From Candidatus Hydrogenedentota bacterium (lineage in GTDB: Bacteria; Hydrogenedentota; Hydrogenedentia; Hydrogenedentales; CAITNO01), in assembly GCA_029776995.1 (NCBI GenBank), contig JAKOTZ010000003.1:1-54352 (forward strand): 54,352 nucleotides of DNA, read 5' to 3'. Numbering within the stretch: position 1 is the stretch's first letter; each line of letters begins with the position of its first letter. A program made the translations under genes and the position numbers. The notes beneath the pieces are model-generated. The model was not told where the DNA came from and searched no databases. It worked only from the letters and a program-made list of their open reading frames with translations. Positions 3,789 through 17,773 of this stretch are shown in pieces.

Positions 3789-5957
3789 ATGAGGAAGCTG
3801 TGGGCGGAACGGCGGATATGGTTCGCGTGGACGGCGCTTTTTTTGTGCGCGGGGACGCTCTGGGCCGACCTGGTAAGGCCGGATATTACGGGCAGGGACG
3901 TCCGCATCATCCGGGATGAGTGGGGCTCTCCCCATATTTTCGGCAAAACAGACGCGGATGCCGCGTTCGGCCTCGCCTACGCGGTCTGTGAAGATGACTT
4001 TGCCACCATAGAAGAGGCGTTCTGGATGATGCGCTGCAGGATGGCCGAACAGCTGGGGCCGCAATTCGCCATCATCGACCTGCTTACCTGGATGTTCCGC
4101 CAGCGGGAAATTGTGGCCGAAAAATACGCCACGGACCTCTCGCCGGAGGTCCGGGCGGTTGTCGAGGCCTACGCCGATGCCGTCAACCTCTACGCCAGCG
4201 AGCACCCGGAAAAAGTGAAACGCCCTGACCTTTTCCCGATAACGCCTCAGGATATCGTGGTGGGTTTTGTCCAGAAAACGCCGTTTTTCTTCTTGACCGA
4301 TAAACATCTCCGGAAGCTCCTGCGGGAAGAATGTTTTGAAAAAATGAACCTCCTCGAGATTGCCTCGAGGTCCTTTGATCCTACCGACGCGATCGTGGAA
4401 AAACTTATCCGGGGCGCCATGCTGGGTTCAAACGCCTTTGCTATCGGTCCTTCGCGTTCCGCGGACGGCAGCACTTTCCTCGCGATCAATTCCCACCAGC
4501 CCTGGGAGGGACAGGTAGCCTGGTATGAAGCCCATACCGCCAGCGAAGAAGGGCTGAACCTTATGGGAGGCACCTTTCCCGGCGCGCCGATCGTCCTGCA
4601 CGGGTTCACGCCGGACCACGGCTGGGCGCATACGGTCAACCTCCCGGACCAGATCGACATTTACCGCCTGGAAATAAACCCTGAAAATCCGAACCAGTAC
4701 CGGTTTGACGGCGGGTGGCGTGACTTTGAAACCGGCCAGGCCGAAATCCCCGTAAAAATCGGCGCTGTCAAATTCATGTGGCGGCCCTCCCTGTGCTGGT
4801 CCGCCCAGGGGCCGGTATTGCGCCTGCCCGGCGGCGTGTTTGCCCTCAGATATGGCGGGCACGGCAACATCCGCGCCGTGGAGCAGTGGTACCGGATGGG
4901 CAAAGCCCGCAACCTGGAGGAATTCACCGCGGCCATGCAGCTTCGCGGCGTTCCCTCATTCAACTGCGTGTACGCGGACCGGGCCGGTAATGTGGCCTAT
5001 TTTTACAACGCGCTGCTGCCCGTGCGCGCCCGGGGGTATGACTGGGCGTGGATCGTGCCGGGTAATACCTCGGAAACCCTGTGGTCGGAAAGCTGGCCCT
5101 GGGACCGTCTTCCCCATGCGGTCAACCCGAAGTCCGGGTTCGTCGTCAGCTGCAATCATACGCCCTTCCAGTGCACCACTTCCGACGACCGTCCGAAACT
5201 CGAAGACTATGCCGATCTCGACTATGTCGGCATTGAAACGGATATGACCAACCGCGGCTGGCGCGCCCTGGAACTGTACGGCGGGGACTCCTCCATCACG
5301 GAAAAAGAATTCTATACGTACAAAATGGACCGAAAATATTCTGAAAAAGGAGAGGTCATCGCGCTGGTAAAACAGCTCCTGGCGCTGGACCTGGACCAGT
5401 CGGACCCCGCCGTGGCCGAAGCGCGAAAAGTTCTCGCCGACTGGAAGCCCAACGCGGACGCGGATAACCCCGGAACAGCCTTGGTGGCCAAAGCCCTGGA
5501 ACCTTATATCCGGGCTCGGTATATGCTCGAGAAACAGCCGCCCCTGGATCAGCTGCTGATTGACGCGGCCCATTATCTGAAAGAGCACTGGGGAAAAGTC
5601 GCTGTGCCCTGGTCTGACGTGTGCCGCCTCCGGCGGGGCGACCTGGACCTGCCGCTCTGGGGCGGCCCTGACACGCTTCGGGCGATCCAGGGGAAATGGG
5701 ATGGCAGCGGCCACTATATCGCCAACCACGGCGACTGCCACATCCTGATGGTCACCTGGACCAAAGACGGCGCGGTCCGGGCAAAAGGAATCCACCAGTA
5801 TGGCGCCGCGGCAACGGTGCCGGATTCGCCCCACTACGCCGACCAGGCGCCGCTGTTCGCCGCCGGAGAATACCGCGACGCCCTGCTGGACGAGGAGGCC
5901 CTCAAAGCCAGGCCCCATCGCGAATACCGCCCCGGGCAACCCGCGGAAAATCAGTAA
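3789..5957 (+). CDS. secreted penicillin-acylase-family amidohydrolase
   Basis: This is an N-terminal-nucleophile hydrolase of the penicillin acylase/acyl-homoserine-lactone acylase family. Such enzymes cleave amide bonds of acylated compounds after autoprocessing into alpha and beta chains. From ATG 3789 (AAGGAGG at 3774-3780) the protein has 722 residues and a signal peptide in residues 1-26 (a hydrophobic stretch ending in LWA). The alpha chain spans about 27-190. The expected nucleophile is Ser214 in GSNAFAIG, with NSHQPWEG after it matching the NPHxPW-type motif, followed by GGTFPGAPIVLHGFT. An upstream in-frame ATG at 3741 lacks a ribosome site and overlaps the -10 box, so it is rejected. 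Substrate is unknown: beta-lactam, acyl-homoserine lactone and acyl-peptide are all possible. A terminator follows. Confidence 0.9.
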   Translation: MRKLWAERRIWFAWTALFLCAGTLWADLVRPDITGRDVRIIRDEWGSPHIFGKTDADAAFGLAYAVCEDDFATIEEAFWMMRCRMAEQLGPQFAIIDLLTWMFRQREIVAEKYATDLSPEVRAVVEAYADAVNLYASEHPEKVKRPDLFPITPQDIVVGFVQKTPFFFLTDKHLRKLLREECFEKMNLLEIASRSFDPTDAIVEKLIRGAMLGSNAFAIGPSRSADGSTFLAINSHQPWEGQVAWYEAHTASEEGLNLMGGTFPGAPIVLHGFTPDHGWAHTVNLPDQIDIYRLEINPENPNQYRFDGGWRDFETGQAEIPVKIGAVKFMWRPSLCWSAQGPVLRLPGGVFALRYGGHGNIRAVEQWYRMGKARNLEEFTAAMQLRGVPSFNCVYADRAGNVAYFYNALLPVRARGYDWAWIVPGNTSETLWSESWPWDRLPHAVNPKSGFVVSCNHTPFQCTTSDDRPKLEDYADLDYVGIETDMTNRGWRALELYGGDSSITEKEFYTYKMDRKYSEKGEVIALVKQLLALDLDQSDPAVAEARKVLADWKPNADADNPGTALVAKALEPYIRARYMLEKQPPLDQLLIDAAHYLKEHWGKVAVPWSDVCRLRRGDLDLPLWGGPDTLRAIQGKWDGSGHYIANHGDCHILMVTWTKDGAVRAKGIHQYGAAATVPDSPHYADQAPLFAAGEYRDALLDEEALKARPHREYRPGQPAENQ

Positions 5958-6008
5958 CCTCCAGCAATTCCAGATATGGAATAATATCCGGGACTGGACC
6001 CGGGAAGG

Positions 6009-6034
6009 CGGCAGGCGGAATGCCTGCCGTTTTC
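6009..6034 (+). terminator. intrinsic terminator after the acylase gene
   Basis: An 8-bp perfect stem (CGGCAGGC / GCCTGCCG) with a 5-base loop is followed by TTTTC. It lies 51 bases after the acylase stop and 23 bases before rimO, so rimO probably has its own promoter or depends on read-through. Confidence 0.65.
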
Positions 6035-6056
6035 GTCAGAACCATGGAGATTACGG

Positions 6057-7451
6057 ATGAAACGTTCCCGCGGCGGACTGGTCGGGCTGATCACCCTGGG
6101 CTGCGACAAAAACACCGTGGATATGGAATACATTGCCGGCGCGCTGGATAAGGTCGGCCTGCGCTGGTGCGTCCTCGACCCGGAAGTTCCCGCCCCTGAA
6201 CATGAACCGGACGCGGTGGTGATCCTGACCTGCGGCTTCGTGGGAGACGCCAAACGGCAGTCTGTGGAAGCCCTGGCCGAGTGGGCCGAGCGAAAGAAGC
6301 GGAGCGGTATTCCCAGGCTGCTGGCGGCGGCGGGATGCCTGTCCCAGCGTTATGGTGATGCCCTGGCATCCGAACTTCCCGAACTCGACCTGATCTGCGG
6401 TGTCGGCGAACCGGAAAAACTGGCCGAACAGTTAAGAGAACGGCTGGACGAAAACCTTGCTGAAACGGATACGCCTCCCGTGCGGTCCGTATCCTCCGCG
6501 CGGCCGGATATGTGCTGGAAAGGAGGGGTGCGGCCCCGCATTCCGCTCACGCGGTCTGCCACGGCTTTTTTGAAAATATCTGATGGCTGCGACCATGCCT
6601 GCGCCTTCTGTGCCATACCTTCCATGAAAGGCCCCCACCGTTCCGTGCCCAGGGAAATCCTGCTGGCGGAAGCCCGCGCGCTGTTGCGCCGGGGAGTCCG
6701 TGAACTGGTGCTCGTGGCGCAGGACACCACCGCCTACGGCCGCGATCTTTACGAGAACTACGGGCTCCCGGAACTGCTGGCGGATCTCGACAAACTGTCC
6801 GGACAGTTCTGGATCCGGGTCCTGTATGCCTATCCAACCGGTCTCAGTTCCCGGCTGGTCGACGCCATGGCTTCCCTGCGGCGTGTGGCGCCCTACCTGG
6901 ATATGCCGTTGCAGCATCTCGATCCGGATATGTTGCGCCGCATGCGCCGCCCTGTCCGGGCGGCTGATCCCGCGGTCCTGGTGGACCGGCTTCGGCGCGC
7001 CGTGCCCGGCATTGCCCTCCGCACCACGTTCATCGTCGGGCATCCCGGCGAAACCAGGCGGGCTTTTTCCAGCCTGCTCGCGGGGCTTCGCTCCCTCAGA
7101 TTCAACTGGGCCGGCGCCTTTGCCTGGTCGCCCGAGGAGGGTACGCCTTCCGCCTCGCAGCCGGGCCGGCCTGATCCGCGCACGGCCCGCAGAAGACTGG
7201 AGCGCCTCATGGAAGCGCAGGCCGAAATTACCGCGGCATGGAACGCGGAGCGGATAGGGTCGGTTGAAGAGATGCTGATTGAATCCGTCGATCCTGACGC
7301 GGATCTGGCCGTCGGAAGATCCGTAAGGGAAGCCCCGGAAGTCGACGGAACGATCTGTCTGCGGGGCGGGGGACGCCTTAAACTTGGTGACCTGGTACCC
7401 GTCCGGATCACAGGTGCGGCTGTGTATGATCTGGAGGCGGTGCCCCTGTGA
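6057..7451 (+). CDS. rimO: ribosomal protein S12 methylthiotransferase RimO
   Basis: RimO is a radical SAM enzyme that methylthiolates an aspartate of ribosomal protein S12. The 464-residue protein shows all three parts of the family: an N-terminal UPF0004 domain whose cluster cysteines are Cys16 (TLGCDKN), Cys59 and Cys94 (AAGCLSQ); the radical SAM core with CDHACAFC (Cys178, Cys182, Cys185); and a C-terminal TRAM domain from about residue 400. The text ISDGCDHACAFCAIPSMKG, with the RS..R pattern that follows, is typical of RimO rather than MiaB. GGAG lies 8 bases before the ATG. The stop TGA overlaps the GTG start of the next gene, suggesting coupled translation although the two functions look unrelated. 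Confidence 0.93.
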   Translation: MKRSRGGLVGLITLGCDKNTVDMEYIAGALDKVGLRWCVLDPEVPAPEHEPDAVVILTCGFVGDAKRQSVEALAEWAERKKRSGIPRLLAAAGCLSQRYGDALASELPELDLICGVGEPEKLAEQLRERLDENLAETDTPPVRSVSSARPDMCWKGGVRPRIPLTRSATAFLKISDGCDHACAFCAIPSMKGPHRSVPREILLAEARALLRRGVRELVLVAQDTTAYGRDLYENYGLPELLADLDKLSGQFWIRVLYAYPTGLSSRLVDAMASLRRVAPYLDMPLQHLDPDMLRRMRRPVRAADPAVLVDRLRRAVPGIALRTTFIVGHPGETRRAFSSLLAGLRSLRFNWAGAFAWSPEEGTPSASQPGRPDPRTARRRLERLMEAQAEITAAWNAERIGSVEEMLIESVDPDADLAVGRSVREAPEVDGTICLRGGGRLKLGDLVPVRITGAAVYDLEAVPL

Positions 7452-9592
7452 GCGCCTTTCCCGAAAAGGAAGAGCTTGCTGCCGATGGAGCAGCCCATGG
7501 CGCTGGTTCACCGGGTGCCCATCGGAACACGTCTTTCAGTTTGCTGATACTGGCGCTCATGCTGCTGGCCGCGGCGGCGGTGCGGCTGGCTTATCTGGAA
7601 CAGGTGCGGTCTGCTCCTGATTTTGCCGCGCCGGTCCTGGACCCTCAGCTTAACGATTACTGGGCCCGCGCGCTGGTTACGGGAGACTGGACGCCACCGG
7701 ACGGGGCGAATGATCCCATGATCCGTTCAACCCCCTACGGCCGCCCGCCGGGTTATCCCTGGTTCCTGGCCGGAATCTATCGGGTCTTCGGCCTGCACCC
7801 CCTGACGCCCAGGCTGGCTCAGATGGCGCTGGGTTTGCTCACGGTTCTGCTCGCGGGCGGCATCGGCTGGAAAATGTACGGACCCTGGGGAGCCGGCACG
7901 GCCGCGGGACTGCTGGCATTTACCTGGCCGATGCCTTTTTTTGAAGGCGAACTGAATTCGCCGGCGCTGGAGTGTTTCTGTTTTGCGGTAATGATTGCGG
8001 GGCTGCTCCAAAGCCATAATCGGTATGCCCGGGGCGGACTGGCTCTGGCCGGGCTGGCCGGCGGATGGCTGATTATCACCCGTCCCAACGCGGCGCTGCC
8101 GGTGCTGCTGGCCGCCGGCTGGGTCGCCTGGCGATTCCGCCCAAAAACGGTTCCGCAGAACCGCCCTGTCGCGGACTTCCTGTCCGGGTTTAGGCCGGCG
8201 TTTGTTTTTCTTGCGGCTGCCCTGCTGTGTGTTCTGCCGGTAGTGGTCCGCAACCGGATCGTCGGCGGCGAGTGGACGCCCGTATCCTATTACGGCGGCG
8301 TTAACCTCTATATCGGGAACCATCCGGATTCTTCCGGCGATCGCCCGCGGATACCGGACATCCAGGAAATCTCCGGATGGGAGGGCTGGAACTGTTTTGA
8401 CTATCCCCACCTTATTCAGGGGCTTGCGTCCCGCCAGGGGCTGGACGGATCTTTCGGCGCCGCTTCTCGGTGGTTTGCCCGGCGGGCGCTGTTGAACTGG
8501 CTGGAACATCCCGGCGCGATGTTCCGCCTTACGCTGCGGAAAGCCCTGCTCTTCTGGGGGCCGGCCACCGTGTCGGACAGCAAAGAAGTAGCCCTGGAGC
8601 GGCAGCGCAGCCCGATACTGTCCCTGCTGCCCGGATTCCCGCTGGTGGCCGGGCTGGGGCTGGCCGGAATGGTTCTGGTATGGATTGGCAACCGAACCCG
8701 GCTCTGTCCGGCCGCCCTGTCCCCGCCGCCCGGGGAATCCCTCCTGGCGCTGCTGGCCATGGGTCATTTCCTGTCGGTGCTTCCATTTTTCATGGCGGAA
8801 CGCTACCGGGTGGCCGCGCTGGTCCCGCTGGCCCTGCTGGCGGGCGGAGCGGTATGGCGCGCGCGTGAAGCCATCCGCTTCAGGCATCCCCGCTGTGCCG
8901 CGTGGGCGTTGGTGGCCGTTTTAGCGGGAACGGGTTTTACCCACATGCCCCTCGCCGCGTACCGGCCGGATGAGGCGCGCTGGCATTTTCACCGTGGCCT
9001 GGCCCTCATGAAAACCGGGAATCCTTTGCCTGCGGCCGTAGAGCTTCAGTGCGCTATTGCCAGGGATCCTGCCCACACCTGGTCCTGGCTGTATCTGGCG
9101 GCCGCCTATGAACAGATGGGACGGCTGGAAGACGCTTTGGCGGCCTGCGAAAGGGCGGTAAAGCTAAGTCCGGGCAGACCAGACGCCTGGAATAACCTGG
9201 GGTGGCTGTACCTGTGCCTGAACCGGCCAGGGCCGGCTGAGACAGCCCTGTCCGAGGCGGTCAGGCTGGACCCCGAATACCGTGTCGCCTGGATGAACCT
9301 CTTGCGCGCCCGGTTGGACCAGGAAAAGTATCGCGAAGCGGAAACAGCCGCCCGCCGCCTCGTTGAAATGGAACCGAATAATCCGGACGCGTGGAACAAC
9401 CTCGGATGGACCCTGATGCTGCAGCGCCGTAATGAAGAGGCTGAAGCGGCTTTTCTGAAAGCGCTTGAATTGGACCCCGGTCATCCTGCCGCCAGGGCGA
9501 ATCTGGAGAATCTTCGGACGGGAACGGCTCAGCAAAATTTGTCTTCGGAAATGCGCGCTCATCCCCTTAGTACCCCGAAATCTCAGGACTGA
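7448..9592 (+). CDS. polytopic glycosyltransferase (GT39/PMT-like) with C-terminal TPRs
   Basis: This 714-residue protein has about ten hydrophobic segments between residues 28 and 495, then a soluble tail from about 510 with four to five TPR units (for example EQMGRLEDALAACERAVKLSP and the two DAWNNLGW blocks). The N-terminal part resembles the GT39/PMT/ArnT class of lipid-phosphate-sugar glycosyltransferases: an acidic residue in the first periplasmic loop (VLDPQLNDYW) and a PYGRPPGYPWFLAG segment. The membrane-GT plus TPR design is that of TMTC-type O-mannosyltransferases. It probably transfers a sugar from a lipid carrier on the outer face of the inner membrane. The start is GTG 7448, overlapping the rimO stop, with no clear hydrophobic signal before residue 28. 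It opens the glycan block. Confidence 0.75.
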   Translation: MSAFPEKEELAADGAAHGAGSPGAHRNTSFSLLILALMLLAAAAVRLAYLEQVRSAPDFAAPVLDPQLNDYWARALVTGDWTPPDGANDPMIRSTPYGRPPGYPWFLAGIYRVFGLHPLTPRLAQMALGLLTVLLAGGIGWKMYGPWGAGTAAGLLAFTWPMPFFEGELNSPALECFCFAVMIAGLLQSHNRYARGGLALAGLAGGWLIITRPNAALPVLLAAGWVAWRFRPKTVPQNRPVADFLSGFRPAFVFLAAALLCVLPVVVRNRIVGGEWTPVSYYGGVNLYIGNHPDSSGDRPRIPDIQEISGWEGWNCFDYPHLIQGLASRQGLDGSFGAASRWFARRALLNWLEHPGAMFRLTLRKALLFWGPATVSDSKEVALERQRSPILSLLPGFPLVAGLGLAGMVLVWIGNRTRLCPAALSPPPGESLLALLAMGHFLSVLPFFMAERYRVAALVPLALLAGGAVWRAREAIRFRHPRCAAWALVAVLAGTGFTHMPLAAYRPDEARWHFHRGLALMKTGNPLPAAVELQCAIARDPAHTWSWLYLAAAYEQMGRLEDALAACERAVKLSPGRPDAWNNLGWLYLCLNRPGPAETALSEAVRLDPEYRVAWMNLLRARLDQEKYREAETAARRLVEMEPNNPDAWNNLGWTLMLQRRNEEAEAAFLKALELDPGHPAARANLENLRTGTAQQNLSSEMRAHPLSTPKSQD

Positions 9593-9667: not shown

Positions 9668-12550
9668 ATGCATCTTTTTTGGGAGCCCGTGGTCTGGCCG
9701 CTGTTTGACCTGTTGAAACCGCGCCGGATCCTGGAAATCGGAGCTGAAGAAGGAAAACACACCCTTAAAATCCTGCCCTGGTGCCAGCGGTTCGGCGCCG
9801 TGCTGCACGTCATTGAACCTTTTCCAAAGTTTAACGTTGAAGAATGCGCCGCGCGCTACCGCGGCCATTTCGAACTGATCCAGGGATTCAGTCCCGAAGC
9901 CCTGCCGTCGCTGCCTCCCGTGGATATCGCGCTGATCGACGGCGATCACAACTGGTATACGGTACACGCGGAACTCGAGACCCTCGCCAAACAGAATCGC
10001 CACCATAACGCCATCCCGCCGCTGTTTCTGCTTCATGATGTCGATTGGCCTTATGGTCGCCGGGACCTCTATTACGATCCGGACCGAATCCCTGCGGAAT
10101 ACCGGAAACCCTGGCGTCGCGCGGGCATCCTGCCGGGGTGTGTTGCCCTGGCGGAAAAAGGAGGATGCAACGCCAATTATTGCAACGCGGAAACCGAAGG
10201 CGGAGAACGGAACGGCGTGCGGACCGCGGCAGAGGATTTTGTTGCGGAACATGCCGATGAAGCGTGGCGTCTGATTGTGCTGCCGTTCTTTTCCGGGTTG
10301 GGCATCCTGGTCTGTGATCAGCACTTGAAAAAGGTCCCCGAACTGAACGCCTGGCTGGAATCTCTCCCGGACGAACAGCGCGCGGACCTGTGGATACGGG
10401 CGATTGAAGGCGAACGGACCCGCGTGCTGGTAGAACTCGAGAAGCGGCGGCATGATATCGCCTACCTGAAACAGAAGCGGGAGGACGCAGAAATAGCACT
10501 GGCCCGCGAGCGCGAATCATTCAGGGAACTTACAAACCGGCATGAAATCCTGAAACAGGAACGTGACCGGCTCCAGAGCGAACGTGACCGGCTCCAGGGC
10601 GAACGTGACCGGCTCCAGGGCGAACGTGACCGCCTCCAGGGCGAACTTGACCGGCTTCAGGGCGAACGTGACCGGCTCCAGGGCGAACGTGACCGGCTCC
10701 AGAGCGAACGTGACCGGCTCCAGGGCGAACGTGACCGGCTCCGCGCGGAAATCCTGAACCAGATACCGGTGCTGGTGGACGCGGCCCGCCTCATGGAGCG
10801 CCGCGAAGAGCTGTTGCGGCAGATCCGGGTTTCCATTAACCTTTTCGAACTGGCCGCGAAATCTTATGCCAAATTCCTGGCTTCCTGGCGCTGGCGGGTG
10901 GGCAACCGGCTGGCCCGTTGGGCGGCTTATTTCCGCGGAGGCAACACGGGACAGCCCACGGCTGTCATCCGCGTAAAAGATGCCATCCGGCGGCACGGCA
11001 AGTGGAAAGAAAACTACGCGGCCCGGGAAAAATCGTTGGTGCCTGCCCGCGAGGTCACCGCACTGCTGACATCCCCGGAACAGTGGTCCAAACGCGGGAA
11101 AAATCTGTCTGACCGGTTGCGCGCTGAGGTCGCCGCGCTGGAAAATGAGCTGCGCCAGGTCCTCAGCCTGTATGAACGGATGCATCTGGAGAGCCGGCGC
11201 CTGACCGCCTCCAAACGCTGGCGCCTGGGGTCACTGATTATCGGCCAGTTCCACCGCCTGCGCCTGCCGGAAGTTCCATCGCCGATTCCTCCTCTCCTGA
11301 ACGTGCACTGGGCCGCGTTCCAGGCATTGCGGAAGGGACTTCGCAACACTCCGCTTACGCCTTTGCGGATCAATAAGGATCACTTTGCCGCGGGCCGGCG
11401 GCAGCCGGATCCCCCCGCTTCATCCGCCTACAGTGTTCCCGCGCGTTCTGCTGAGCCGCGCCGGCCTGATCCGGTCGCCCGGCTGCTGCAGTTCACGCCG
11501 CCCCGCCCGCGCAACCCCTTTTACACCATCATGACCGACCAGTTGGCGCGGTGGGAGTGGCCGGTGCGTTTCACGGTCAAATGGGACGAAGCGGAGGCCT
11601 GGGCCCGCGAGCGGCACGCCCTGCCCCCGGTAGTGCACCTGCATCAGCTGGACCCGTTCTACCATGTCGCCGGCGGCGATCTGAACGCCGTCCGGGAGCG
11701 CGCCGAGTCCCTGCTGCGTCGCCTGGAGGCGCTGCGCGGCGCCGGCGCGGCGCTGGTCCACACCTTCCACAACCCCTGGCCCCACAACCGCGCCTTTCTT
11801 GAGGTGGACCGGTGGTTCACGGAACGGGCCATGCCGCTCATGGACCGGATTATTGTCTTGTGTGAAGCCGGCGTGCCCCACGTGCGGCAGTTCGCTCCCG
11901 CCGAGAAAATCGTCCACATTCCTCATCCGCACTTCATGGGTATTTACGGCCCTCCGGAGGATCGCGCTGCCTCCCGAAGAAAATTCGGCTTTGCCGACTC
12001 GGATTTTGTCTTCTGCCAGGTGGGCGAGATCAAGCCCTACAAAGGGCTGGAACGGCTCCTGGACGCGTGGGCGGTTGTCCGGCGGGAAGACCCGAATCTC
12101 CGCCTGCTGCTGTCGGGCCGCGCCCCGGATAACGCCTACTTGAAGAAAATACGGGAACGGCTGGAGGACAGCGTGGTGCTGGAGCCCCGCGAACTGGGGG
12201 ATTCCGAAATTCCCGAACGCCTGGCTGCAGCGGACGCGGCCGTCTTCTCCTTTGAGGATCAGTGGGTGTCCGGCTCGGTCATCCTGGCCCTATCGTATGG
12301 CGTCCCGGCGGTGGTGCCCGACGTCGGCGGGCTTGGAGAGTATGTGTTTGAGGAAGACAACGGTTTCCTGTACGCCCCCAACACGGCTGAAGCGCTGGCG
12401 GCCGCGATACTGCGCGCCCGCCGGTGTCCCTGGCCCGAACATCTGCGGTATATGTGTTTCGCCCATTGCGCCAAGTGGGCGCCGGATCACATTTCCGCGC
12501 GGTACGCGGAGGTATACGCCGCCGCCGCGCGAAACAGGAATATGCCATGA
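9668..12550 (+). CDS. methyltransferase / coiled-coil / GT4 glycosyltransferase fusion
   Basis: The 960-residue product joins several modules. Residues 1-130 look like a class I SAM-dependent methyltransferase (ILEIGAEEGKHT at about 20-31; ALIDGDHNWY at about 86-95). Residues about 250-365 are a coiled coil that includes nine 7-residue units of ERDRLQ(G/S) (298-360). Residues about 370-600 are basic and helical with two related 'ASWRWRVGNRL'/'ASKRWRLGSLI' segments. Residues about 650-957 form a GT-B C-terminal half with CQVGEIKPYKGLERLLDAW, a typical GT4 nucleotide-sugar site, and an acceptor-side EYVFEEDNGFLY. It probably modifies and extends a surface glycan, with the coiled coil setting distance or assembly. 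A TAAAAT box at 9599-9604 and ACAGGAG precede the gene. Its stop overlaps the next start (ATGA). Confidence 0.8.
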   Translation: MHLFWEPVVWPLFDLLKPRRILEIGAEEGKHTLKILPWCQRFGAVLHVIEPFPKFNVEECAARYRGHFELIQGFSPEALPSLPPVDIALIDGDHNWYTVHAELETLAKQNRHHNAIPPLFLLHDVDWPYGRRDLYYDPDRIPAEYRKPWRRAGILPGCVALAEKGGCNANYCNAETEGGERNGVRTAAEDFVAEHADEAWRLIVLPFFSGLGILVCDQHLKKVPELNAWLESLPDEQRADLWIRAIEGERTRVLVELEKRRHDIAYLKQKREDAEIALARERESFRELTNRHEILKQERDRLQSERDRLQGERDRLQGERDRLQGELDRLQGERDRLQGERDRLQSERDRLQGERDRLRAEILNQIPVLVDAARLMERREELLRQIRVSINLFELAAKSYAKFLASWRWRVGNRLARWAAYFRGGNTGQPTAVIRVKDAIRRHGKWKENYAAREKSLVPAREVTALLTSPEQWSKRGKNLSDRLRAEVAALENELRQVLSLYERMHLESRRLTASKRWRLGSLIIGQFHRLRLPEVPSPIPPLLNVHWAAFQALRKGLRNTPLTPLRINKDHFAAGRRQPDPPASSAYSVPARSAEPRRPDPVARLLQFTPPRPRNPFYTIMTDQLARWEWPVRFTVKWDEAEAWARERHALPPVVHLHQLDPFYHVAGGDLNAVRERAESLLRRLEALRGAGAALVHTFHNPWPHNRAFLEVDRWFTERAMPLMDRIIVLCEAGVPHVRQFAPAEKIVHIPHPHFMGIYGPPEDRAASRRKFGFADSDFVFCQVGEIKPYKGLERLLDAWAVVRREDPNLRLLLSGRAPDNAYLKKIRERLEDSVVLEPRELGDSEIPERLAAADAAVFSFEDQWVSGSVILALSYGVPAVVPDVGGLGEYVFEEDNGFLYAPNTAEALAAAILRARRCPWPEHLRYMCFAHCAKWAPDHISARYAEVYAAAARNRNMP
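10559..10747 (+). repeat. nine-unit 21-bp in-frame tandem repeat
   Basis: Nine copies of a 21-bp unit (gaacgtgaccggctccaggg plus c) begin at 10559 and recur every 21 bases. Units 2, 3, 6 and 8 are identical. Units 1 and 7 share one change (Ser for Gly), unit 4 differs at one base, unit 5 at two, and unit 9 degenerates at its end. Each unit encodes one coiled-coil heptad. Near identity at wobble positions implies recent expansion by slippage or unequal crossing over. Confidence 0.97.
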
Positions 12551-14529
12551 ACCCAGCCATTGATCTTGTAGTGCCTGTTTTTAATTCCCCGCACCACGCC
12601 CGCGCGTGCCTGCGGAGCATCTTTACGCATGCGGACGTACCCTGCCGGCTGATCGTTGTGGATGACTGCAGTGACGACCACACGGCCGGCATGCTGCGGG
12701 AACTGATGGCCGCCGCGCCGGACGCGGTGGAGGCCCGTTATCTCCGCAACGAGCAGAACCTGGGGTATCTGCGCTCGGTGAACCGCGGAATCCGTGAAGG
12801 CGGCGCTCCCGTTGTTGTGCTGGTCAATTCGGATACCCTGCTGACGCCGGGCGCGCTCAACCGCGTGTTAAGCGGATTTGGCCGCGACCCCAAAATCGGC
12901 GTGATCAATCCGGTGTCGAACTGGGCCAACTGGACACGCATACCTTTTCCAGACGGCGCGAACATTTATTCCCTGACAGATGCGGTGCGCCGGCTGGGTT
13001 CCGGGAAACTTCCGGACATCCGGAACGCTTCCGGATTTTTCTTCGCCATGCGCCGGGAGCTGATCCAGGATATCGGCGACTTCGACGAGGCCTATGGCTT
13101 CGGCTACTGGGAGGAAACCGACTTTTGCATGCGCGCCCTCGCGAAAGGATGGCGGGTCGTGGTCGACGACAGCCTGTACATCTTCCATCACGGCTGGGGG
13201 AGTTTCCAGGAAGAGGGCCGCAACGAAAACATGCGCCGCAATCGCGAAATCTTCATGGCCCGCTGGCAGAAACCATTCGCTGAAGCCGAAGCCTGGTGGA
13301 AACGGAACGATCCGGTAAAACCCCTGTCCGGCGCCCTGGAACGCGCGTTTTCCGCGGCGCCTGCGGCAGGCATGCCTAATGAATCCCGGATCCGGGACCG
13401 CATAGAGGCGCTGAGGTCGGGCGCTTCTCCCGCCCTGCGGGAGGGCGCGGCATCGGGGCGTCCCGCGGAGCGGCCGAGGGTCATCTATGTCCTTCCCGCC
13501 GTGGCGCTGTACGGAGGCATCATTTCCGTGCTCCAGGTGGTGAATGAGCTCATCCTGAACGGTTTCGACGCCAACATTGCCACTTACGGCCGGGTGGACG
13601 ACGAGATGTTCCGCATGTTCCCCATGTATTTCCGGCCCTGGCGCTTCGAATCCATGGAACAGATGGTCCGGTGTTTTCCCCAATGCGATCTGGTTGTCGC
13701 CACCGCCTGGGAAACGGTGTATCCCGTGACGGCCCTCAGGGAAATGCGTCCCGGCCTGCCCGCCGTGTACTTTGTGCAGGATTTCGAGCCGGATTTTTAC
13801 GGAGACGACCGTCCTGACCTGGCACAGCTGGCGGACCGGACCTATTACCTCATTGCCGACCAGATCGTCAAAACCCGTTGGCTGGCCCGCAAACTTAAAC
13901 CCTACGGCGGAAGAGTGCGCCGAATCCCCCTGGGGCTGAACCTCGACTTTTTCCACGATGAAGGAAAACCCAGGCCCAGGCAAATCCTCAGCCTGGCCCG
14001 GCCGACCTCCGCCAGGCGCAATTTCCCCATGGTTTGCGAGGTATACCGCAGAATCCATGCCCTGCGCCCGGATATCACCCTGGCCCTTTACGGCGGGGGC
14101 ATCGACCCGGCAACCCTCGACTTTCCCGTGCGCTATTACGGAAAGCTGGGCGAGATGCGGGAAGTCGCGCGGGCGCTGAATGAAACGCTGGTCCTGCTGG
14201 ACTGCTCGACCTTCCAGGGATTCGGGCGGCCCGGACTGGAAGCCATGGCCTGCGGCGCGGCCGCCGTGCTCACCCGTGAAGGCGGCATTACCCAGTACGC
14301 CAAACACCGGTGGAACTGTTTGCTGATTGATCCCGAAGACCCGGAGGATATCGTCAGCGCCCTGCTGGAGATAGTGGATAATGCGCCCTTGCGGGAACGC
14401 CTGGTCGCCAACGGTAAATCCACCGCGGCGGACTATGCCACATGGCTGGAAGGGCGGCGCACCGCCGCGTTGTTCCGCGAACTTCTCGGTCTGGCGCCGC
14501 CGGCTTCGGATGGCGGCAGCGGGGTATAA
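12547..14529 (+). CDS. GT2-GT4 bifunctional glycosyltransferase
   Basis: The 660-residue protein carries two transferases. Residues 1-235 are a GT-A family 2 enzyme: LVVPVFNSPHHARACLRSI at the N-terminus, VVDDCSDD, a metal-binding NSD motif (VLVNSDTLLTPG) and WEETDFCMRA as the catalytic base region, close to rhamnosyltransferase-type proteins. Residues about 315-650 are a GT-B enzyme with a GGIISVLQ glycine loop, a PLGLNLDFF hinge and QGFGRPGLEAMACG, the EX7E-type donor site of GT4 proteins. Start ATG 12547 overlaps the previous stop by four bases, so the two are translationally coupled; the in-frame ATG at 12424 lies inside the previous gene and is rejected. It probably adds two successive sugars to a surface polysaccharide. 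Nucleotide-sugar specificities cannot be read. Confidence 0.85.
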   Translation: MNPAIDLVVPVFNSPHHARACLRSIFTHADVPCRLIVVDDCSDDHTAGMLRELMAAAPDAVEARYLRNEQNLGYLRSVNRGIREGGAPVVVLVNSDTLLTPGALNRVLSGFGRDPKIGVINPVSNWANWTRIPFPDGANIYSLTDAVRRLGSGKLPDIRNASGFFFAMRRELIQDIGDFDEAYGFGYWEETDFCMRALAKGWRVVVDDSLYIFHHGWGSFQEEGRNENMRRNREIFMARWQKPFAEAEAWWKRNDPVKPLSGALERAFSAAPAAGMPNESRIRDRIEALRSGASPALREGAASGRPAERPRVIYVLPAVALYGGIISVLQVVNELILNGFDANIATYGRVDDEMFRMFPMYFRPWRFESMEQMVRCFPQCDLVVATAWETVYPVTALREMRPGLPAVYFVQDFEPDFYGDDRPDLAQLADRTYYLIADQIVKTRWLARKLKPYGGRVRRIPLGLNLDFFHDEGKPRPRQILSLARPTSARRNFPMVCEVYRRIHALRPDITLALYGGGIDPATLDFPVRYYGKLGEMREVARALNETLVLLDCSTFQGFGRPGLEAMACGAAAVLTREGGITQYAKHRWNCLLIDPEDPEDIVSALLEIVDNAPLRERLVANGKSTAADYATWLEGRRTAALFRELLGLAPPASDGGSGV

Positions 14530-14530
14530 T
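14525..14530 (+). promoter_or_regulatory. TATAAT -10 box containing a stop codon
   Basis: A perfect TATAAT contains the TAA stop (14527-14529) of the GT2-GT4 gene. No good -35 box was found at 16-18 bases. It would feed the micropeptide and first SGNH gene. Confidence 0.4.
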
Positions 14531-14702
14531 GTCTTACGAACTCGACACGGGAGAACCTGTTATGAGTCCGATTCCACCCAGACGCCTGCCGGCGCGCGCG
14601 CAGAGCCTCACCATCATCCTCGACACGATCCTGCAGATCCTGAGCATTATCGAGGCCGTTTACCGGCTGTTCACGCTGATTTTCTCCTCCCAGGCGCGGT
14701 GA
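14529..14702 (+). CDS. single-span membrane micropeptide in the glycan block
   Basis: A 57-codon frame starts at ATG 14529, sharing one base with the stop of the GT2-GT4 gene. A second in-frame ATG at 14562, preceded by GGGAG, would give a 46-residue product. The C-terminal half is one hydrophobic helix (about residues 28-53 of the long form, rich in Ile, Leu and Phe) after a basic Pro/Arg stretch, which predicts a cytoplasmic N-terminus. A TATAAT box covers 14525-14530, which favours the inner start if transcription begins there. Its TGA overlaps the GTG of the next gene. Coupling on both sides argues it is real. No known family is recognised; it could be a small subunit of a glycan-export or SGNH complex. 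Confidence 0.55.
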   Translation: MSYELDTGEPVMSPIPPRRLPARAQSLTIILDTILQILSIIEAVYRLFTLIFSSQAR

Positions 14703-16228
14703 GCAGGTTCGCTGGAGCGCGGCGTGCCCGATGGATTGCCCTCGCGCTGACGGGCGGGCTGTGGCTGGTCCTGCTGGCCGTCGGCCTGGAAACCTGGGCG
14801 CGGTGGCAGGCCCGGCAGGAGGAACGCCTGGCGCGGGAGATAGAAAACCGCCTGTATGCGGAGTCGGAGTGGACCGCCCGGGACCAGGCCGTCGCCCGGG
14901 AGGTGCTCGGAGCGTGGCCCGATACGGACGCCGACCTGCGCGCCTGGCGCGATTTGCTGAACCTGCCCCCCGCGGACAGCCGGTGGAAAAAACGGGCGGA
15001 TACTTTTGGCGAGGCTTTTCTGTTTCTGGATGCTGCCGGACGGGTGGCGGACCGTATCCTGCCGGATCCCGCCGGGTCCTCCTTGCCTGCCGGGTGGCTG
15101 GAGCGTTTTACTCCCGGAGTGGTGATTACCGATATCCTTCCCGCCGACTGGGCTGATGACGCTGCCGCCGCGTCGCGGTCTGCCGCCGCGGGACATCAGA
15201 TTCGTGAGTATCCTGTCCCCATTCAGGAGAACAGTCCGCCGGAAGTGCTCCAGTTTGTCTGGATGCCTGCCCCGCCCGAAGTCGCGTTTTCGATCCTGTG
15301 CGTCATCCGCCCATCTATTTGGAAGGAACTCTGGATCGCTTTTCGCCCGAATGTTCACCATCAGGACATCATGGATTTCCAGTCAAACAGCCTGGGCTGG
15401 CGGGATGGCGAAGTGCTGCTGCCAAGGCCGCCGGATGTTTTCCGCGTGGTCTGTGTCGGCGGATCCACCACCGCCGAGGGACCGCACAATGCCCTGACCT
15501 ATCCGAATCTCCTGGAACGGCGCCTCCGCGGCGCGTTCCCAAAAATAGACGTGGTCAACGCCGGAATCTTTGCGATCCTCAGTTTCGGCGAAGCGAGGCG
15601 CGCACCGGATTACCTGGCCCTGGATCCTTCGCTCATCCTCCATTACAACTTCGTCAATGACGTGCCTTATGTGCTGGACCGCGCGGAATCTGCGGAGTCT
15701 TTTCTCTCGCCCCGCCGGCTGCTCCGTCGGCTGGCCCGGCATTCCATTTGGGTACGGCGGAACCTTGACCTTTGGGTTCTTCCCGCTGAAACGGATCTGA
15801 TAACAGGGCTTCAGGACACATTCGCCAACATGGACGTGTTGCGGCGCGAAGCCGGCCGGCGCGGGGTTCCGGTCGTGTTTTGTTCCTTTGCCAGGCCGGG
15901 CTGGGAGAACCTGCCGGATTCCGAAAAAGCCTTTTTCAACCGTCGGATCCTCAACATGATTTGGGGGCCGCGCCTGACCATGCGCGCCTACTGCAGGCTC
16001 GTCGACCTTTATAACCGTGAACTGCGCCGGCGCTGTGTAGAATGGGACGCGCCGTTTCTCGATATTGCGCCACTGCTGGCCGGAGGCGCCGAACGCTTTA
16101 CCGATATCTGCCACATGCGCGTGTGGGCCATGGAGGACAAAGCCCGGGTGATTGCCGACCGCCTCGCGCCGATCATTGCGGGAAGCGCGAACGGCGCGCC
16201 CGGTCCTCAGCCGGCGTCTCTGTTATAA
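14699..16228 (+). CDS. membrane-anchored SGNH/GDSL hydrolase, copy 1
   Basis: From GTG 14699 (overlapping the TGA of the micropeptide) the protein has 509 residues. Residues about 12-30 are a hydrophobic anchor after an Arg-rich start, so the catalytic part faces the periplasm. A helical region (40-150) precedes the SGNH domain: block I VVCVGGSTT with nucleophile Ser256, then DVVNAGI, HYNFVND in place of the GxND block, and DICH with Asp469 and His472 completing the triad. Such enzymes are esterases, often adding or removing O-acetyl groups on polysaccharides. The next gene is a paralog of nearly the same length. Its position beside glycosyltransferases suggests work on a surface glycan. Longer in-frame starts lie inside the preceding genes and are rejected. 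Confidence 0.82.
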   Translation: MSRFAGARRARWIALALTGGLWLVLLAVGLETWARWQARQEERLAREIENRLYAESEWTARDQAVAREVLGAWPDTDADLRAWRDLLNLPPADSRWKKRADTFGEAFLFLDAAGRVADRILPDPAGSSLPAGWLERFTPGVVITDILPADWADDAAAASRSAAAGHQIREYPVPIQENSPPEVLQFVWMPAPPEVAFSILCVIRPSIWKELWIAFRPNVHHQDIMDFQSNSLGWRDGEVLLPRPPDVFRVVCVGGSTTAEGPHNALTYPNLLERRLRGAFPKIDVVNAGIFAILSFGEARRAPDYLALDPSLILHYNFVNDVPYVLDRAESAESFLSPRRLLRRLARHSIWVRRNLDLWVLPAETDLITGLQDTFANMDVLRREAGRRGVPVVFCSFARPGWENLPDSEKAFFNRRILNMIWGPRLTMRAYCRLVDLYNRELRRRCVEWDAPFLDIAPLLAGGAERFTDICHMRVWAMEDKARVIADRLAPIIAGSANGAPGPQPASLL

Positions 16229-16229
16229 T
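16224..16229 (+). promoter_or_regulatory. TATAAT -10 box containing the stop of SGNH copy 1
   Basis: A perfect TATAAT spans the TAA stop (16226-16228) of the upstream gene and lies 17 bases before ATG 16247. Transcription from it would give a leader of only about 10 bases. Confidence 0.4.
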
Positions 16230-16246
16230 CCCGCGGGAAACACTTC

Positions 16247-17773
16247 ATGAAGCGCGTCCTGCTGAAAACAACCCTTGTCCTGTCGCTTTGGCTGGTGTGT
16301 CTGGCCTTCGCTTTGGAGGCATGGGTCCGGTTTACCGAGTGGAAACTCGACCGGCGCGTGCCCGAGGTGGAGGTTTATTATGGCTACAACGCCCCGAAAT
16401 GCGCCCGAAACGCCGAGATCCTCCGGGAAGTGCTGGGAACGGATCAGGTGGTGTTCAACCGGGACCAGCTGGCCTGGCAGGAGCTCCTGAAATCTCCCGA
16501 CCTGGAGCCGTGGCAGCGGCGTGCTGATGAACACGGTGAAGTATTTCTGTTTCTCGACCGGGACTGGAAAATTCACACCCGGGTGGTCCCGCGTAATGTG
16601 TCGGATGAATTGGCGGTGTATGCCGCCCGGCTTGAACCCGGCCGCAGGCTGGAGACGGTTCTTCCCCAGGGTACCGTTCAGGATGCTGCCCAGTGTCTTG
16701 AGATCGTCAGCGATTCTTTCTGGCAGTTCCGGGAGTATCCCGTGCCCTTGCCCCGCCCGTACCGGGTAACGGTGTTTCAGTTCGGTTTTCTGCGGATGGA
16801 TGCGCCTCCCGCGGCGCCCGATCTGAGGAACGGCTACCTGGTGGTCGTCCGCCTGTCCATCTGGCTGGATTTTCTTTTTGCCCTCCGGCCGGGCGTGAAA
16901 CGCGCCTCGGGATCCATCGAGGAGATCAGCAGCCAGGGATGGCGTTCTGACGAAGTGGCGGTGCCGAAACCTCCCGGCGTGTTCCGGATCATCTGCGTAG
17001 GAGGGTCTACCACCTACGAAGGCGACCATAATGCCCTGACCTGGCCGGCCCTTCTGCAGCGGCGGTTGCGCGCCGAAACCGGCCGGCCTATCGAGGTGGT
17101 CAACGCCGGCATCCTGGCGCTCGACAGTTTCGGCGAATCTCAGCATGCCGAAGACTATCTCGCCGTGGAACCGGACCTCGTCCTCCATTACAACTTTGTC
17201 AACGACATGGAGCGGATCGTTTCCGCCCTCAATTCGGATGGGACTTCGTCGGGCCTGGTGAAGGCCGCGCTTCGCCGAATGGCCGGCATATCCGTGCTGT
17301 TGCGCCGCAGGCTCGACGCATATCTGTTGTGGGACAAATCCCAGGTGGACCGCGCGCTGGACCTTACCTTCAGCAACTACGACTTCCTCCGGAACGCCGT
17401 TCACCGCGCTGGCGCGCGCATGGCCTTTTGCACCTTTGCCCGGCCGGATCCCGATATATCCCCCGCCGAACGGGCGCTCATCGAACAGCGGCTCCGGGCG
17501 CAGTACTGGGGGCAGAACCTCACCCTGCTGCAGTACTGCTGGATTGTCGACTGTTATAACGACCGCCTGCGCCGCTATTGCGCTGAACATCAGCTGCCCC
17601 TGCTGGATATTGCCCCCTACCTCACCGGCGGCGCGGACCGCTACATTGACTACTGCCACATGCGTCCGTGGTCCATCGAAGAAAAGGCCCGGCTGGTGGC
17701 CGAGCGGATTCTTCCCCTCCTGGGCGAAACGCAACCGCCGGCGGATGCCTCAGCCGCCGCGCGGACACCCTGA
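16247..17773 (+). CDS. membrane-anchored SGNH/GDSL hydrolase, copy 2
   Basis: This 508-residue paralog of the preceding gene has the same plan: an N-terminal anchor (about residues 6-24), a helical region of about 200 residues, and an SGNH domain with IICVGGSTT (Ser254), EVVNAGILALDSFGE, HYNFVND and DYCHMRPW (Asp468, His471). Spacing between nucleophile and Asp (213-214 residues) is the same in both copies, showing descent from one tandem duplication. Copy 2 differs mostly in the N-terminal helical region, which may recognise a different acceptor. Its neighbour on the right, trpS, is convergent, so this gene ends the glycan block. Esterase or acetyltransferase roles are both possible. Confidence 0.82.
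   Translation: MKRVLLKTTLVLSLWLVCLAFALEAWVRFTEWKLDRRVPEVEVYYGYNAPKCARNAEILREVLGTDQVVFNRDQLAWQELLKSPDLEPWQRRADEHGEVFLFLDRDWKIHTRVVPRNVSDELAVYAARLEPGRRLETVLPQGTVQDAAQCLEIVSDSFWQFREYPVPLPRPYRVTVFQFGFLRMDAPPAAPDLRNGYLVVVRLSIWLDFLFALRPGVKRASGSIEEISSQGWRSDEVAVPKPPGVFRIICVGGSTTYEGDHNALTWPALLQRRLRAETGRPIEVVNAGILALDSFGESQHAEDYLAVEPDLVLHYNFVNDMERIVSALNSDGTSSGLVKAALRRMAGISVLLRRRLDAYLLWDKSQVDRALDLTFSNYDFLRNAVHRAGARMAFCTFARPDPDISPAERALIEQRLRAQYWGQNLTLLQYCWIVDCYNDRLRRYCAEHQLPLLDIAPYLTGGADRYIDYCHMRPWSIEEKARLVAERILPLLGETQPPADASAAARTP

Follow-up and report, generated by a model that had tools for sequence, protein, structure and literature searches.

The helical spacer of P0001, an ORF of 960 aa, contains a real array of nine in-frame 21-bp units that is of recent tandem-duplication origin, and comparison with relatives showed that in several lineages the same coil has grown through unlike duplications that keep the phase. 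The array was located at positions 10559..10747 of the plus strand (aa 298-360) by TRF and unit-by-unit comparison, and its units encode ERDRLQ[G/S]. The window denotes the whole 54-kb stretch of DNA that was analysed. That the spacer is a ruler for a chain-capping methyltransferase and works like the WbdD-type ruler is given about an even chance.

P0001 (9668..12550, plus strand) consists of a Methyltransf_24 domain, a coil, Trp/Arg segments and a GT4 domain, as determined by Pfam and translation. The methyltransferase module (9668..10366, plus strand) covers approximately aa 1-233 in the family alignment, with the Pfam Methyltransf_24 match at aa 22-109. Its score against Methyltransf_24 (PF13578) was 46.7 bits, which is above the gathering cut-off of 26.3. 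The residues E23, G25, D91-Y97, H123 and D124, among others, are invariant in the 34-row module alignment and all of them are kept in P0001. A PDB search with the methyltransferase family profile retrieved only weak COMT-like O-methyltransferases. The heptad-rich helical spacer (10370..10852, plus strand; approximately aa 235-395) was delimited by a composition rule, which gives aa 235-366, and by the heptad register, which runs on to about residue 388.

Directly after the coil, a first Trp/Arg segment, FLASWRWRVGNRLARWAAYFRG, was found at 10874..10939 (plus strand), followed by a second one, LTASKRWRLGSLIIGQFHRLRL, at 11201..11266 (plus strand). An SxxWRxG-like motif is present directly after the coil in many relatives, with two copies in P0001 and in L006, a locus of another genome of the phylum (G015). 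In both proteins the copies lie approximately 100 residues apart, as if anciently duplicated. By analogy with WbdD only, these segments could possibly be in contact with the membrane surface. The GT4 domain (Glycos_transf_1; aa 766-921) was identified with Pfam at 11963..12430 (plus strand). Its E-x7-E motif seems to lack the second Glu in P0001 (SFEDQWVSGSVILALSYGVP), L006 (FRDIWVSSSVLLSQSYGVP) and L008 (FRSIWASSSVVLATSYGVP), which could point to a subgroup of GT4 enzymes or to a change in catalysis. The next gene, P0003 (12547..14529, plus strand), encodes a GT2-GT4 fusion according to Pfam, and starts with an ATG at 12547 that overlaps the P0001 stop codon. With WsaF_N, P0003 gave a sub-threshold match (24.6 bits; cut-off 27). 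Upstream, Pfam revealed a PMT_2-like membrane protein with TPRs (7448..9592, plus strand).

TRF on the whole window returned one array only, with a period of 21, 8.8 copies (10559-10742), 94% matches, 0 indels and a score of 333. Units 2, 3, 6 and 8 are identical, whereas units 1, 4 and 7 are one base off, unit 5 differs in two bases and unit 9 in four, all within its last five. The nine near-identical repeats that an earlier note had reported were confirmed in this way, and the unit length is indeed that of one heptad; the odd unit number, which had also been pointed out, carries no meaning. CGT encodes the first Arg of the unit in 8 of 8 cases and CTC encodes Leu in 8 of 10, whereas neighbouring genes use CGT for 9% of Arg and CTC for 19% of Leu. 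Since these rare codons recur and the DNA likeness exceeds what the protein requires, the units go back to a recent in-frame duplication at the DNA level. A motif search with two mismatches allowed identified no second array of the core motif in the 3.4-Mb genome. Single-strand folding of the array DNA gave no hairpin signal, being weaker than in shuffles (z +4.4).

An assembly artefact, that is a false array or a wrong unit number, is hardly credible. The 189-bp array exceeds common short-read length and the source assembly, a Ca. Hydrogenedentota MAG, consists of 262 contigs, which would leave room for such an error, but the reading frame is intact and units 1, 4, 5, 7 and 9 carry marks. Furthermore, within the array and its 150-bp flanks no exact repeat is longer than 58 bp, and k-mers of at least 61 never recur. 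Because assembler words longer than 58 bp resolve the nine units unambiguously, a collapse during assembly is unlikely and was rejected on these k-mer grounds.

With Leu placed at d, the heptad register puts Arg at a and Gly or Ser at f, each in 8 of the 9 units. Judged from its sequence, the array heptad is a weak coil and no classical coiled coil, probably poorly suited to a stiff rod, so that the coiled-coil heptad described earlier does not hold as a clean repeat. A heptad with a single Leu, with Arg at a and with Gly or Ser at f would also fit a flexible or single-helix charged arm that binds a glycan or membrane surface instead of a rigid ruler. Such an arm would be similar to NeuO of E. 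coli K1, a surface-glycan modification enzyme which shares tandem one-Leu heptads with P0001; an early model of its heptads (RLKTQDS) showed a coiled coil, which the crystal structure did not confirm (PMC3046976). However, hydrophobic a and d positions were found in the parts of the spacer flanking the array, most relatives have ordinary coil sequence there, and the net charge of the unit is near zero. A charged arm is therefore considered very improbable.

Quite unlikely, too, is a fast population-level length dial along the lines of the earlier note, in which units would be gained or lost by slippage or recombination and cells would differ in polymer length. Near-identical units with common rare codons would fit this explanation, as would the AGC variant common to units 1 and 7, which may be the trace of a six-unit block duplication, one base being no proof. 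A precedent exists in NeuO, where heptad number tunes the activity of a capsule-modifying enzyme (PMC3046976). The NeuO unit is 7 nt long, N-terminal and causes on/off switching (PMC3046976), whereas that of P0001 is 21 nt long, internal and always keeps the frame. Neither TRF nor unit comparison detected a 7-nt substructure within the 21-nt unit, and the array does not correspond to a phase-variable VNTR of the NeuO type. Several units carry private substitutions and, because of these, the array cannot be regarded as freshly homogenised, which speaks against a length dial. In addition, units of 21 bp are far less mutable than the 7-bp ones in NeuO, and this counts against it as well. The phase-like variation assumed in the earlier note is excluded as an on/off switch, since 21 is a multiple of 3 and a unit of this length cannot shift the frame.

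Among genome contigs, the best match to P0001 was found in a same-genus Ca. Hydrogenedentota MAG (G001), with 85% identity over aa 1-157. The contig C57 of this genome (L025 6001-6477) ends inside the orthologous gene at aa 157-158, before the array. No close match to P0003 was found in this congener and, for this reason, the region after aa 158 seems to be located in an assembly gap of G001. The sole full-length orthologue in the phylum is that of G015 (L006), with 44% identity, where the counterparts of P0001 and its GT2-GT4 partner form an adjacent pair, too. At the same place, the coil of L006 carries a different repeat, which is 42 bp long and present in 2.6 copies (KHEREMEAEERRRE). The methyltransferase domains of P0001 and L006 are sisters in the tree (SH-aLRT 98). 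Since the arrays of these sisters are unlike, at least one of the two lineages has made a new array or replaced an old one since the split.

For the family-wide analysis, 85 members including the window were sampled, and arrays with a TRF score of at least 100 were counted as strong. The coil was called by a purpose-made composition rule, not by a trained coiled-coil predictor. Strong arrays were found in 10 of the 85 members, namely L001 (the window), L006, L027, L028, L032 (two genes), L046, L050, L057 and L063, with periods of 7, 14, 11, 21, 14, 28, 11, 14, 11 and 14 aa, respectively. All ten are located in the coil directly after the methyltransferase and have heptad or hendecad multiples only as periods; nine of them are independent evidence, the window having been chosen for its array. 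The coil accounts for 20.5 kb (2.4% of the loci DNA) and contains these 10 arrays, compared to 18 TRF rows of mixed periods in the other 847 kb. The array units are mostly dissimilar, with a best cyclic identity of commonly 10-30%, and only a few pairs, including L046-L057, L001-L063 and L006-L063, reach 43-57%. The family tree asks for nine array changes, of which strongly supported branches force only one. Since the tree is poorly resolved, the estimate of how often arrays arose depends chiefly on the units. No proof is drawn from simple binomial figures for place and period, because the helical context both seeds and filters duplications.

Neutral or weakly selected growth of a linker is a serious alternative, although a less probable one than the ruler. 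Here, the coil would tie the domains together or make an oligomer, its length would carry no information, and helix-compatible duplications would be kept since they are harmless. Coil lengths, measured with the composition rule, range widely among relatives, from 28 to 325 residues. This spread, the ease of tandem duplication in an already periodic sequence and the retention of the enzyme domains, not of the repeat, in L001 and L006 are all in agreement with a neutral linker. In-phase periods are also expected of a merely tolerated helical linker, which is a point against the ruler. On the other hand, a neutral linker fails to predict the match to known ruler layouts and the association of coils with Wzt-like neighbours, which is as follows. 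Of 47 loci with a coil, 20 have a Wzt-like ABC ATPase in the flank, compared to 3 of 36 loci with a short or no coil (Fisher P 5e-4), figures in which loci are kin by descent and not independent and some weak matches may be other ABC ATPases. Firm cases are L033, L046 and L057, in which a Wzt with a carbohydrate-binding C-domain is encoded approximately 0.7 kb upstream. A wzt-like gene is also next to the family gene of the cultivable Anaerobacillus alkalilacustris (L040).

The family spans many bacterial phyla and includes two archaeal loci. These loci, L029 and L099 of Methanosphaera, encode Methyltransf_24-coil relatives, so that the family crosses domains. The downstream domains, analysed in 32 members, are mostly GT2 and GT4. 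In Thiobaca trueperi (L032), two nearby Methyltransf_24-coil genes, at 5941-7449 (plus strand) and 10242-13340 of the reverse strand, each have their own coil array, of 42 bp and 84 bp. A scan of viral contigs yielded a single distant methyltransferase and nothing else.

A 21-bp coding piece has recently been tandem-duplicated in frame inside the helical spacer of P0001. In the proposed ruler mechanism, this spacer would fix the distance between an O-methyltransferase that caps chains and the glycosyltransferase or membrane end, and a growing glycan would be capped only after its length allows it to arrive at the methyltransferase. The nine units would add 63 residues, corresponding to about 90 angstrom if fully helical. 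We infer a helical array, chain capping by the P0001 methyltransferase and a chain length that follows from coil length. The ruler is supported by the order methyltransferase - coil - GT and by the intact conserved methyltransferase residues, and the data suggest rather than prove that spacer length has been adjusted to set polymer length. The ruler function put forward in the earlier note stood in part: ruler-like domain order, the Wzt-like neighbours of relatives and the in-phase lengthening of the coil in several lineages are in its favour, whereas the array heptad is no clean coiled coil and the window contains no linked ABC exporter. It is plausible, and better supported at the family level than a single sequence could show. 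A dependence of surface polymer length on array length, as supposed in that note, is conjectural.

No Wzm/Wzt was found within the window, and neither the source genome nor G015 gave a Wzt_C match. Two unlinked Wzm/Wzt-like pairs are encoded elsewhere in the source genome, on contigs C245 and C46. The former (L131 3-2132; G000:C245) includes a Wzt-like ABC ATPase whose ORF of more than 700 aa runs off the contig and has a long C-terminal part with no Pfam match; it is possibly an unusual Wzt.

The Wzt-bearing surroundings of relatives are those of ABC transporter-dependent glycan synthesis, in which terminator-coil-polymerase proteins are proven or proposed rulers (PMC11231755, PMC3482155, PMC5082667, PMC2943079). 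The known protein ORF6 of K. pneumoniae O7 (PMC11231755) is similar to P0001 in that an N-terminal methyltransferase, a central coil and a C-terminal GT are united in one polypeptide. This ORF6 (methyltransferase-kinase - coil - GT2-GT2) has kinase and carbohydrate-binding domains and is encoded beside wzm/wzt (PMC11231755), whereas P0001 has one GT4, no detected kinase domain and no linked exporter. P0001 shares with WbdD of E. coli O9a (PMC3482155, PMC5082667) the N-terminal methyltransferase and, as predicted for P0001, a long helical spacer and, after the spacer, a segment that may touch the membrane. In contrast to P0001, WbdD has a kinase and no GT (PMC3482155, PMC5082667), and no 21-bp array is described for its coil in the cited literature. 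The WbdD chain was absent from the PDB matches of the P0001 methyltransferase domain and of its family profile. P0001 was not classed as a WbdD-type ruler, because a linked Wzm/Wzt exporter with a cap-binding C-domain and a sequence relation to WbdD were both lacking. WsaE of Geobacillus stearothermophilus (PMC2943079) resembles P0001, with its candidate capping function, in the fusion of an N-terminal capping methyltransferase to a GT. WsaE is a methyltransferase - GT - GT protein encoded with wzm/wzt (PMC2943079); P0001, having one GT4 only and no linked wzm/wzt, was not assigned to this type either.

Experimental proof of coiled-coil glycan-length rulers is confined, in the cited literature, to E. 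coli O9 and K. pneumoniae O12. A wider reading, in which members of a widespread Methyltransf_24 - coil - GT family readjust surface-glycan length via repeated independent helix-period duplications in their rulers, the array of the window being recent and perhaps still mobile, is unlikely as a whole and is offered tentatively. If true, one enzyme layout would come with a natural series of ruler lengths. A family with several in-phase coil duplications would show how the length of rulers evolves and would provide a ready-made length series for tests of the ruler model outside the enterobacteria. Should the array prove variable within a population, it would also act as a dial for the length of surface polymers.

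Following the GT genes, SGNH/GDSL-like proteins (P0005 and P0007) are encoded at 14381-17773 of the window. They are possibly enzymes of glycan O-acetylation, and for P0005 the listed start probably lies too far upstream.
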